64,000 bases of DNA from Psychrobacillus psychrodurans (lineage in GTDB: Bacteria > Bacillota > Bacilli > Bacillales_A > Planococcaceae), in NCBI GenBank assembly GCA_900114885.1, contig FOUN01000003.1, forward strand, positions 62,001 to 126,000, written 5' to 3'. How positions within the stretch are numbered: position 1 is the first letter of the stretch; every line of letters begins with the position of its first letter. The notes under the pieces are model-generated. The model made no database searches. It had not been told where the DNA came from and saw nothing but the letters and a program-made list of their open reading frames with translations. Shown here one piece after another: positions 7,328 to 52,600 of the stretch. A program made the position numbers and the translations under genes.

Positions 7328-7462
7328 CTTCTGCGACGAGCTTTGCGCATGAGCAAAACGAACTTCTGCGACGAGCTTTGCGCAGGAGCAAAACGAACTT
7401 CTGCGACGAGCTTTGCGCAGGAGCAAAACGAACTTCTGCGACGAGCTTTGCGCAGGAGCAAG
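7328..7462 (+). repeat. 35-bp tandem repeat, four copies
   Basis: Four head-to-tail copies begin at 7328, 7363, 7398 and 7433, an exact 35-bp period. Each unit runs CTTCTGCGACGAGCTTTGCG then CAGGAGCAAAACGAA. Copy 1 has T instead of G in CGCAG. CTGCG and CGCAG within each unit can pair around an 11-base loop. The block is much richer in GC than its surroundings. Open reading frames over it on both strands arise from the repeat and are not genes. It lies just after resC and directly before a structured element. Confidence 0.9.
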
Positions 7463-12327: not shown

Positions 12328-12365
12328 CTGCCAATGCTTATCAACTAAAGCTTGGCAGTTTTTTT
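12328..12365 (+). terminator. Terminator after rsiX
   Basis: CTGCCAA (12328-12334) pairs with TTGGCAG (12352-12358), extended by GCTT/AAGC past one bulged T, and is followed by seven T. A strong intrinsic terminator for sigX-rsiX. Confidence 0.85.
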
Positions 12366-12380
12366 GTATCTGGGTACGCG

Positions 12381-12525
12381 ATAGCCTATAAAGTTATGGA
12401 AATAGCCCATAAACAATCAATCCAGGAATAATAACGAGATGAAAGCCCATAAGATTTCAAATATAGCCCTTAATTCAATCAAAAAAGCCCGTAAATTTTT
12501 TATTATAGCCTATATTAGGATGTTG
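12381..12525 (+). repeat. 21-bp period array, motif AGCCCATAA
   Basis: The motif (T/A)AGCC(C/T)(A/T/G)TA starts at 12382, 12403, 12443, 12464, 12485 and 12506. Intervals are 21, 40, 21, 21 and 21 bp; the 40-bp gap leaves room for one decayed unit. The 10-12 bases between motifs differ in every unit. It lies between the rsiX terminator and the ribU promoter, outside any gene. Same period as the arrays at 13738 and 52477 but a different motif. Confidence 0.75.
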
Positions 12526-12622: not shown

Positions 12623-12752
12623 TCATCTTCGGGGCAGGGTGCAATTCCCGACCGGCGGTATTAGAAATTTATTTCTTCAGCCCGCGAACCTTAACAGGTT
12701 GATTTGGTTAAATTCCAAAGCCGACAGTATAGTCTGGATGGGAGAAGGTGAA
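12623..12752 (+). ncRNA. FMN riboswitch (RFN element)
   Basis: The conserved RFN segments appear in order: ATCTTCGGGGCAGGGTG, ATTCCCGACCGGCGGT, AGCCCGCGA, and CCGACAGTATAGTCTGGATG followed by GGGAGAAGG. The closing helix can form between CATCTTC and GAAGGTG. FMN binding is expected to switch off ribU downstream. The GGGAGAA near the 3' end can also pair with TTCTCCC at 12807-12814, giving the alternative fold needed for attenuation. Confidence 0.95.
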
Positions 12753-12811
12753 GGTGCAGTCGTTTCTCGTATGCTTATACGGATACGCTTATTTAAGTGT
12801 ACCTTGTTTCT

Positions 12812-12843
12812 CCCTTGAACTTTATTGGTTCAAGGGATTCTTT
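12812..12843 (+). terminator. Riboswitch-controlled attenuator hairpin
   Basis: CCCTTGAAC (12812-12820) pairs exactly with GTTCAAGGG (12828-12836) and is followed by ATTCTTT. It lies between the FMN riboswitch and ribU, where the regulated terminator is expected, although the T-run is poor. Confidence 0.6.
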
Positions 12844-12906
12844 AAGTGTGCAAACGAGCTGAACCTTTCTTCTTGTGGAGTGAATCGCAAAAGGAGAGAG
12901 GATTTT

Positions 12907-13500
12907 ATGATAAAAGGCAAAACGCGAATGCTTATTGCAGTCGCAATGCTTAGTAGTATTTCTTTTGTTTTAATGCTACTTGCTTTTCCATTACCGGTTT
13001 TACCGGCATATTTGAAGGTCGACTTTAGTGATATACCAGCTTTAATCGCTGCAATCACGATGGGACCAATAGCAGGAATTCTAGTTGCATTTTTAAAGAA
13101 TGTGTTAGATTGGTTATTTGCAGGAAGTCCAACTGGTGTACCTGTTGGTCATATGGCTAATTTTGTAACTAGTATCCTATTTTTAACACCAGTGTATTTG
13201 ATTTATCGTAAAGTTACTACGTCAAAAGGAATTATGGTAGGTCTAGGAGCAGGTACAGTATCTATGGCGATTGGTATGAGTGTTTTAAATTATTATGTGT
13301 TTTTACCAATGTACACTTATTTCTTGAATTTCCCAATGGAAACCGGTACTGCCTTGTTTAATACTATCATTTTCGGTATTTTACCCTTTAATTTGATTAA
13401 AGGCGTAATAGTAACTATTGTGATGATTGTATTATTTAAACGTATAAAACCTTTACTTGATAAGGTTACTAATTCATATATGAAACCTAATACAAATTAA
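12907..13500 (+). CDS. ribU: Riboflavin ECF transporter substrate-binding protein RibU
   Basis: Integral membrane S-component that binds riboflavin for the energy-coupling factor (ECF) importer. The 197-residue protein has about six hydrophobic helices; DFSDIPALIAAITMGPIAG and the NVLDW region are family features. The ATG at 12907 follows AAAAGGAGAGAGG; reading the frame further upstream would run through the riboswitch. The FMN riboswitch upstream confirms the substrate pathway. The EcfA/EcfT energy module is not in this window. Confidence 0.95.
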   Translation: MIKGKTRMLIAVAMLSSISFVLMLLAFPLPVLPAYLKVDFSDIPALIAAITMGPIAGILVAFLKNVLDWLFAGSPTGVPVGHMANFVTSILFLTPVYLIYRKVTTSKGIMVGLGAGTVSMAIGMSVLNYYVFLPMYTYFLNFPMETGTALFNTIIFGILPFNLIKGVIVTIVMIVLFKRIKPLLDKVTNSYMKPNTN

Positions 13501-13503
13501 AAA

Positions 13504-13540
13504 AAGTTGTTTCTCCATTAGGAGGAACAACTTTTTTTTA
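13504..13540 (+). terminator. Terminator after ribU
   Basis: AAGTTGTTTCTCC (13504-13516) pairs with GGAGGAACAACTT (13521-13533) around ATTA, allowing one G-U pair, then a run of eight T. Strong terminator. Confidence 0.9.
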
Positions 13541-14300
13541 GAGGAAAGTAAATATAAATGGATAATACCGCTTTGATTTCCGCCACAATCAACTAAGTAA
13601 GCAGTGATTATTATAGGATCATCTAAAGACATCATTTATAGCATTGGAACTAATAAGTAGAAAATAACAATTAGTAATTCAGTTACATTCATTTAGGTTG
13701 TGAATTAATCAAATTATTTGGGGAAATTATCCTTTTCGCAAGTAAAAGGTAATAAACCGCAAGTAATTATGGACTATGGGCAAGTAAGCTCTTTACGACC
13801 GCAAGTAAGCCACAGATGTAAGCAAGTAAACAATAGGGGAGAGCAAGTAACGATAAAATTGGATTCAATTATTTCATAAAAGATGAGGATGTATACGCAC
13901 AAAGTCCATGTTCCTAGTACTTTATGATATGAAGTGCACCGCATACAAAACAGGGGCTCTGGATTTGTTATCAAGCATCTTTCAACTAGTAAGAAGACAG
14001 AAGACATACGGCAAAAAATAGCTGGTTTCAATCGTATAGAGTAGCGTTAGAGCGAACGAAATTGCATCTTCGAGTGCTTAATCTAGGAATAGTTAGTAGT
14101 TTTTCTGTAGTTAACCAAAAACGCACTTAGGTATTTTTCTAAGAATTGCAGAATGGCGCGGACAGGTAAACGCCAATATCACTAAAAATTAACTTGGTAA
14201 CGATATAGCAAAACGTCTGTCCAAGCCTTCGCAAACGATTGGGACAGGTTTTGACCTTAAAGGCACTGGTATCTTTTTTACCCAGTTTTTCTTACAGAAT
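13541..14300. other. Gene-free region between ribU and fer
   Basis: About 760 bp without a credible gene. It holds the GCAAGTAA array (13738-13863). The remainder, 13541-13718 and 13864-14300, is AT-rich with no convincing frame; the minus-strand open frame across 13774-14031 just reads the repeat. Near 14205-14250, TGTCCAA can pair with TTGGGACA, a minor hairpin. Confidence 0.6.
13719..13863 (+). repeat. 21-bp period array, motif GCAAGTAA, six copies with leader
   Basis: GCAAGTAA occurs at 13738, 13759, 13780, 13801, 13822 and 13843: five intervals of exactly 21 bp. The 13 bases after each motif differ from unit to unit. The sequence before copy 1 (GGGGAAATTATCCTTTTC, from 13719) resembles the sequence before the first copy of the array at 52477. 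Outside any gene, downstream of the ribU terminator. Confidence 0.85.
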
Positions 14301-14340
14301 AAAAAAATGGTGATCATGACAAGAGTCACAACCACCATTC
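14301..14340 (-). terminator. Terminator of fer
   Basis: On the minus strand AATGGTGGTTGTGAC pairs with GTCATGATCACCATT and is followed by a run of seven T. Intrinsic terminator for the ferredoxin gene. Confidence 0.85.
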
Positions 14341-14346
14341 AATATA

Positions 14347-14634
<288 letters not shown>

Positions 14635-52251: not shown

Positions 52252-52270
52252 GAGTATTTAAAAGAATGGA

Positions 52271-52305
52271 GGGCGATGACAGTAGTCATCCTCTTCATTT
52301 TTTTT
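52271..52305 (+). terminator. Terminator after the YugP-family gene
   Basis: GATGAC (52275-52280) pairs with GTCATC (52285-52290), extended by GAGG/CTTC, followed by ATTTTTTTT. Confidence 0.8.
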
Positions 52306-52458: not shown

Positions 52459-52600
52459 GAGGAATTTTCCTTTTCCGCAAGTAAATCATTCTATGGAGCA
52501 AGTATTTGAAGAATATGTGAAAGTAACTGATAAGGGAAGCAAATAAGTCTCCATTAGAAGCAAGTTAATGGTGTATTAAGCAACCGCTATGTAGGTAAAA
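52459..52600 (+). repeat. 21-bp period array, degenerate GCAAGTAA copies with leader
   Basis: GCAAGTA at 52477 and 52498, GAAAGTAA at 52519, GCAAATAA at 52539, GCAAGTTAA at 52560 and GCAACC at 52580: intervals of 21, 21, 20, 21 and 20 bp. The leader GGAATTTTCCTTTTCC just before copy 1 resembles the leader of the array at 13738. The short open frame ending at 52546 crosses the array and is not considered a gene. The rest of the 52306-52698 gap holds the truncated repeat and nothing else recognised. Confidence 0.75.

Follow-up and report, generated by a model that had tools for sequence, protein, structure and literature searches.

The window analysed here is a stretch of 64,000 nucleotides from Psychrobacillus psychrodurans (genome G000). 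It contains six exact copies of the octamer GCAAGTAA on the + strand, with starts from 13738 to 13843, and all five steps between them are 21 bp, confirming the positions and spacing given in the first-pass annotation. The array lies in a convergent gap between a ribU-like gene and a ferredoxin gene, and two decayed arrays of related build lie elsewhere in the window. The features are as follows:

12383–12515, + strand: decayed 21-bp array with a AGCCCATAA-type core, units at 12383, 12404, 12444, 12465, 12486 and 12507
12908–13500, + strand: ribU-like gene, ECF transporter substrate component (Pfam ECF_trnsprt, E 7.4e-33), upstream of the array and co-oriented with it
13503–13541, + strand: intrinsic terminator of the ribU-like gene (script match, stem of 14 plus T run)
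13707–13872, + strand: stretch common to a dispersed array subfamily (166 bp at 78% identity to the L158 copy)
13719–13737, + strand: leader site TGGGGAAATTATCCTTTTC, positions −19 to −1 (consensus of 37 six-unit G000 arrays)
13738–13745, + strand: GCAAGTAA unit 1, exact match
13759–13766, + strand: GCAAGTAA unit 2, exact match
13780–13787, + strand: GCAAGTAA unit 3, exact match
13801–13808, + strand: GCAAGTAA unit 4, exact match
13822–13829, + strand: GCAAGTAA unit 5, exact match
13843–13850, + strand: GCAAGTAA unit 6, exact match
14347–14595, − strand: ferredoxin gene facing the array (convergent gap), 82-aa frame with a CxxCxxC pattern
52477–52567, + strand: second GCAAGTAA array, decayed, units at 52477, 52498, 52519, 52539 and 52560

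The Pfam match to the ribU-like gene was obtained with the frame 12751–13500, and the ATG start at 12908 is our own choice. The ferredoxin gene is present in all 19 genomes of the genus. The window leader is the sole match to the leader consensus in the window (three mismatches or fewer; 0.01 matches expected). The decayed GCAAGTAA array is preceded by a terminator at 52269–52304, and a terminator-like hairpin is found at about 12328–12366, upstream of the AGCCCATAA-type array. The gap of sister genome G005 that matches the latter array contains five exact AGCCCATAA units. At the corresponding place in G001, behind a terminator and ahead of ribU, there is a 41-bp tandem repeat (L335:10529) of seven units that are in effect two alternating halves of 20–21 bp. 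Window positions 12630–12770 presumably represent an FMN riboswitch ahead of ribU.

When the window was scanned for 6-, 7- and 8-mers occurring at least four times at one constant step (below 80 bp), only the GCAAGTAA array and an ordinary 35-bp tandem repeat were recovered. The latter, at 7328–7461, is a plain repeat of 3.8 copies that are 98% alike. Tandem Repeats Finder, run on the window, did not report the six-unit GCAAGTAA array, and the intervals of many other arrays are likewise too diverged for this program.

The window array is one of many in its own genome. G000 contains 211 (119 + 92) matches to GCAAGTAAN{12,14}GCAAGTAA, that is, phased pairs of two GCAAGTAA motifs 20–22 bp apart, and none to the reversed pattern, which excludes chance as the origin of the phasing. 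The window and 20 stretches around 100 of the 211 listed matches, hence a partial set, yielded 52 arrays, 37 of which have exactly six units. The usual G000 element thus consists of a leader site, TGGAAAAAWWWTCC, followed by six units. From −19 to −6 before the first unit the leader reads T-G-G-A-A-A-A-A-W-W-W-T-C-C and is an imperfect palindrome (TGGA..TCC), and the array units are direct repeats. Of 238 steps in the 52 arrays, 218 are 21 bp; further counts gave 195/213, 162/174 and 103/105. The base preceding the motif (−1) is A or C in 95% of 290 units, and −3 is A in 62%. Six units are also found in 30 of 37 arrays of G004 and in 9 of 15 of G008. The arrays of G007 are letter for letter like those of P. 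antarcticus Val9. In G000, arrays cluster in one chromosome region (C8, about 240–394 kb), as they do in the syntenic parts of G004 and G008.

Fictibacillus, which belongs to a different family, has arrays built alike, but their leader is a different one, TTTATGAAAATGATGTGTTTT, and their intervals alternate between two types. Six units are present in 21 of 27 arrays of G061 and G062 and in 21 of 23 in the G069 stretches. The Fictibacillus interval sequence TGTCGAA may bear a likeness to the Spo0A box. A variant of the plan is seen in genome G162, with 20-bp steps throughout (44/44) and seven units in five of eight arrays.

Within the order, 17 of 261 genomes and 6 of 19 genera contain GCAAGTAA triples; among the matches listed, the named genomes with triples include Fictibacillus, Ureibacillus, Planococcus, Psychrobacillus, Neobacillus, Metabacillus, Kurthia and others. 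Array-like matches are present in six of seven Fictibacillus genomes. In the window's own genus, 5 of 19 genomes have GCAAGTAA pairs. This patchiness implies either that the function is dispensable or that the cores differ. Also among the matches listed are single tandem repeats with GCAAGTAA in unrelated phyla, which look unlike the arrays described here. We considered a phage origin and rejected it: judged by eye, all 16 viral contigs with triples carry either near-identical units or coding-like repeats. At the window site itself, the comparison of orthologous ribU–fer gaps proposed earlier speaks against conservation. The array is missing there from all 18 other genomes of the genus, and the gaps are mostly hardly alignable.

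The window array belongs to a Psychrobacillus subfamily in which 150–185 bp, including sequence outside the array, are common to several unlinked loci at 73–78% identity; similar copies are found in L143–L147 and L160 as well as in L158. At L158, G004 and G005 do not have a block of 579–612 bp that holds the array and another repeat. In L150, L153, L155 and L159 whole elements are tandemly multiplied, and their copy number differs from that at the corresponding positions of G004. A dispersed repeat of about 310–380 bp (L158:2680–3070 in G000, contig C10; a related piece lies at window positions 14051–14120) often adjoins a GCAAGTAA array. It is strongly foldable on both strands, contains a 17-bp hairpin, and occurs in tens of copies in several Psychrobacillus genomes, including array-poor ones. 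In Fictibacillus G062 (L262, the L035 site), an insert with a frame that looks transposase-like by eye splits the array, the remainder of which lies further downstream.

To compare motifs with intervals, we aligned orthologous arrays, which are not independent of one another, so that P values are indicative. In 16 arrays of Fictibacillus G061 and G069, differences amount to 15/736 in motifs, 129/976 in intervals, 30/363 in leaders and 244/2555 in flanks, the G069 stretches having been chosen by array-like hits and nine G061 arrays having no partner among them. After removal of four multicopy or rRNA-linked arrays, the remaining 12 give 3/568 for motifs, 6/271 for leaders, 64/763 for intervals and 143/1974 for flanks; motif changes are below interval changes in ten, tied in one and above them in one. 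In Fictibacillus, motif and leader are therefore under purifying selection, whereas the intervals change much as the flanks do.

Selection on the motif is weaker in Psychrobacillus than in Fictibacillus. Thirteen pooled comparisons of G000 with G004, with arrays picked in G000 only, give differences of 45/566 in motifs, 138/755 in intervals, 34/245 in leaders and 167/1101 in flanks. L149 shows the opposite trend (motif 4/48 versus interval 1/64), and three of six further syntenic sites have no detectable array in G004. Indels per substitution are no rarer inside the Psychrobacillus arrays (16/113) than in the flanks (49/302). The intervals are indeed unrelated, as first described: in G000, interior positions agree at 0.256 within arrays and at 0.278 between arrays. 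Since intervals of one array are no more alike than those of different arrays, the constant step cannot stem from fresh duplication. The earlier suggestion that selection maintains phased sites, as opposed to a simple tandem duplication, holds up: motifs change far less than intervals, the 21-bp step is kept although the intervals are saturated, and further arrays of this kind occur in G000 and in relatives.

The arrays are intergenic and have a preferred direction. In 19 locus groups, 77 arrays lie in tandem gaps, 63 in sense and 14 in antisense orientation, and 57 lie in convergent versus 6 in divergent gaps, with 18 at locus ends incompletely classed; gene calls for this count were the longest ORFs with cut-offs of 90–100 aa, so that the 82-aa ferredoxin was missed and the window array was tallied as tandem although it is convergent, and ORFs below 1500 bp that overlapped an array by more than half were dropped. 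Outside Psychrobacillus, 30 tandem-gap arrays are sense and 2 are opposite. An intrinsic terminator separates the stop codon from the array in 42 of 56 cases in Psychrobacillus (control genes, 48/128), 15 of 17 in Fictibacillus (24/59), 7 of 8 in G162 (4/11) and 14 of 27 in other Bacillales (9/46), in a comparison that favours the arrays because controls were scanned over 200 bp and array genes over up to 600 bp. The arrays are thus placed in sense behind genes, usually after an intrinsic terminator. In six of seven G162 cases, the first unit begins 11–18 bp behind the T run. A sense terminator of the array's own, further downstream, is rare in a script scan (1/24, 0/29, 0/13 and 3/21), and we accordingly rejected an independent small-RNA gene.

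At four sites in Fictibacillus G069, which were fetched for their array hits, 23S and 5S rRNA genes are followed by a terminator and then by two or three arrays. In these rRNA-linked loci (L319–L322), alternating GCATGTAA and GCACGTAA cores are found beside standard ones. The upstream genes share no common theme: ten proteins fall into ten different Pfam families.

The close relative G005 has no GCAAGTAA pairs. We scanned 464 kb of four genomes without a preset motif, at 20 periods from 14 to 33. Phased cores were found at period 21 only, in four arrays, three of which are in G005 with the cores AGCCCATAA, TTCCAACTAA and CGAGAGTAA; an exact scan to step 59 added one plain 35-bp and one 41-bp repeat. 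Pairs of GAGAGTAA number 34 in G005 and 1 in G013, with none in G000, G004, G007, G008 or G014, and 13 of 25 GAGAGTAA arrays of G005 have six units. Pairs of TTCCAACTAA number 27 in G005, 5 in G014 and 1 in G013, with none in G000, G004 or G001. The TTCCAACTAA arrays of G005 and G014 have mostly four or five units and 62 of 63 steps at 21 bp, and their leader, TGG[AG]AWWWWTW..CTA, is reminiscent of the one that precedes GCAAGTAA units. They are also oriented as the GCAAGTAA arrays are: nine are convergent, six tandem sense, one antisense, two divergent and one at a locus end.

In eight gaps, G005 carries a GAGAGTAA array where another species carries a GCAAGTAA array in the same direction, and in a ninth gap a TTCCAACTAA array stands behind the same terminator as the GCAAGTAA array of another species. 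We aligned orthologous arrays unit by unit in 14 comparisons, in which 59 of 82 units could be aligned (23 could not) and some G005 arrays were used twice, with two partner genomes. Core position 2 differs in 42 of the 59 units and position 3 in 52; positions 4–7 differ in 0, 4, 4 and 0, and positions 1 and 8 in 8 each. The intervals of the aligned arrays differ at 235 of 669 sites. In one case the odd last base of unit three is retained while the two core bases switch. The core has thus changed in concert, genome-wide, between sister species at orthologous arrays. This pattern strongly suggests that a sequence-specific, trans-acting factor changed its specificity and that the arrays followed, since gene conversion would move whole units and a mutation bias would not stop at two bases. 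At least three cores coexist in G005, however, and a single factor does not account for them.

We read the arrays as directional, non-coding nucleoprotein sites behind transcription units, each with a leader and a fixed number of units and read by a factor acting in trans, and we give this reading roughly even odds (about 0.5). Among the three readings offered by the first-pass annotation, phased protein-binding sites are the one that sequence comparison supports best. The putative factor probably binds DNA, with neighbouring copies aligned along the same face of the helix, because the step corresponds to two helical turns. It might load at or beside the leader and extend along the six sites in one direction. 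The resulting polar filament could stop or slow RNA polymerase that has passed the terminator, or a replication fork, and neighbouring units would thereby be insulated. Such a task as a polar barrier at transcript ends is hinted at by the position of arrays behind rRNA operons, which it would fit. The 14 antisense arrays among 77 in tandem gaps count against this reading, and a symmetrical roadblock would need no direction, which counts against the barrier. Directional protein sites are known from the Tus/Ter and RTP barriers, and Sal-box/TTF-I arrays stand behind eukaryotic rRNA genes; we regard these as analogies of possible working only and claim no homology.

The arrays might alternatively be a selfish, self-spreading repeat family, in which a recombinase or transposase would recognise the leader together with the phased sites and insert new copies downstream of terminators, at little cost to the host; a change of that enzyme would then underlie the core switch. 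The shared subfamily sequence beyond the arrays at unlinked loci, the tandem multiplication of whole elements with copy numbers that vary at orthologous sites and the patchy distribution all favour this explanation, and group IIC introns are known elements that likewise reside behind terminators. Nevertheless, motif and leader are kept in place at many orthologous sites, unlike in a passive insert; at L035, the one locus tested for emptiness, the array has been lost but part of its leader is left, and the site is not cleanly empty; and the element contains no gene, nor were arrays of this build seen among the 16 viral contigs matched. We consider this origin improbable but a serious contender. 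It is slightly less probable again, in our judgement, that the arrays act at the RNA level, with a read-through RNA whose six unstructured GCAAGUAA sites bind a protein and trigger termination or decay. Strand-specific placement behind genes would suit such a role, as would the finding that, in Psychrobacillus, folding of the sense strand is weaker than that of dinucleotide-shuffled sequences (mean z +0.87 and +0.80), an effect not seen on the antisense strand. The folding effect is absent in Fictibacillus (z +0.15), however, and the exact two-turn spacing (20 or 21 bp) has no reason in single-stranded RNA. Most arrays, moreover, lie behind a terminator and would rarely be transcribed from the gene, and few have a sense terminator of their own downstream. 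Consensus folding gave no conserved structure in sets of 19 and 53 arrays, single folds and shuffles gave nothing conserved, and Rfam had no match over an array, either at six loci or within window positions 13500–14340.

A neutral, decayed 21-bp minisatellite is very unlikely. Plain 20–21-bp minisatellites with GCAAGTAA do exist in other genera, among them Neobacillus, B. marasmi and Kurthia, but the kept motif among drifting intervals, the fixed number, the leader, the placement and the concerted core switch refute this origin for the arrays of Fictibacillus and Psychrobacillus taken together. We find it scarcely credible that the arrays are the relic of, or a gene for, a heptad-repeat peptide. 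The window array does have one open frame with QV every seven residues, the observation from which the heptad-coding relic had been proposed, and in Fictibacillus several frames are open on both strands, in up to 18 of 20 arrays, with an in-frame ATG in some leaders, so that the frame test alone is not decisive there. In Psychrobacillus, however, each frame is open in at most 21 of 54 arrays, and all frames contain stops (40–301 in the 54 arrays). Conservation in the leader extends to codon third positions, and variation is seen at second positions. For Fictibacillus, steps of 20 and 22 bp, arrays behind rRNA operons and in-frame stops in some leaders speak against coding. The arrays of G032 have a higher-order unit of 103 bp, no multiple of three. 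The remaining earlier suggestion, a repeat/spacer array, found no support. A CRISPR array has repeats of about 21–48 bp, unique spacers of similar length and cas genes; here the repeat is 8 bp, and the 13-bp intervals drift at the rate of the flanks.

REP/BIME elements are dispersed, intergenic and palindromic and often stand behind genes. The bcr1 and other MITE-like repeats are similarly dispersed between genes and often behind them, but these families and REP consist of palindromes or terminal inverted repeats and not of phased direct sites, as far as the accessible parts of PMC3733652 go. The STAR elements of Staphylococcus (PMC3532100, in part) are closer, being interspersed intergenic direct repeats with a start signature and one to six motifs, with spacers that drift while motifs are kept and with copy numbers that change at a locus. 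They differ by a 14-bp GC-rich motif and spacers of 40–44 bp, compared with an 8-bp core and 13-bp intervals here, and by the absence of two-turn phasing; the accessible text of PMC3532100 gives no rule of place behind terminators.

The closest description is that of Subirana and Messeguer (2021; PMC8161180). According to the available portions of that paper, Bacillus contains 781 tandem repeats with 20–21-nt units of constant length and variable sequence, each species having its own short 'characteristic signal'; the repeats are non-coding and patchy, with many families per genome and a function described as unknown. The authors remark that the unit spans two turns of the helix and propose either small RNAs or a protein that polymerises. 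By unit length, signal and non-coding nature, as these appear in the available text, our arrays are one of these repeats: they have at least four units of equal length, a conserved short signal and a variable remainder, and they are non-coding in Psychrobacillus, with the frame test not decisive in Fictibacillus. They depart from the species-specific families described there, for which exceptions among close species are allowed, in that GCAAGTAA occurs in 6 of 19 genera of the order and extends to Fictibacillus, Neobacillus and others. Relative to the same portions of the paper, the features added here are a leader site, a fixed number of units, the sense orientation of arrays that follow terminators and rRNA operons, the selection contrast, the multi-genus core and the core switch. 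A literature search on the exact motif and topic found no other description.

As far as these sources go, 20–21-nt arrays had previously been without a reported function. A fuller picture can be sketched tentatively, and we hold it to be doubtful as a whole: a Bacillales system in which a fast-evolving DNA-binding protein recognises a leader behind terminators, including those of rRNA operons, and builds a polar barrier along six phased sites in the direction of transcription, with the site re-coded in concert across the genome in a sister species. If true, this would be a bacterial parallel to co-evolving pairs of site and factor. A question that can now be put to the test is the identity of the protein that would recognise GCAAGTAA in one Psychrobacillus species and GAGAGTAA in a sister species, along with its possible task at transcript ends. 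The core switch would also offer a natural experiment on how an entire genome adjusts when binding specificity changes.
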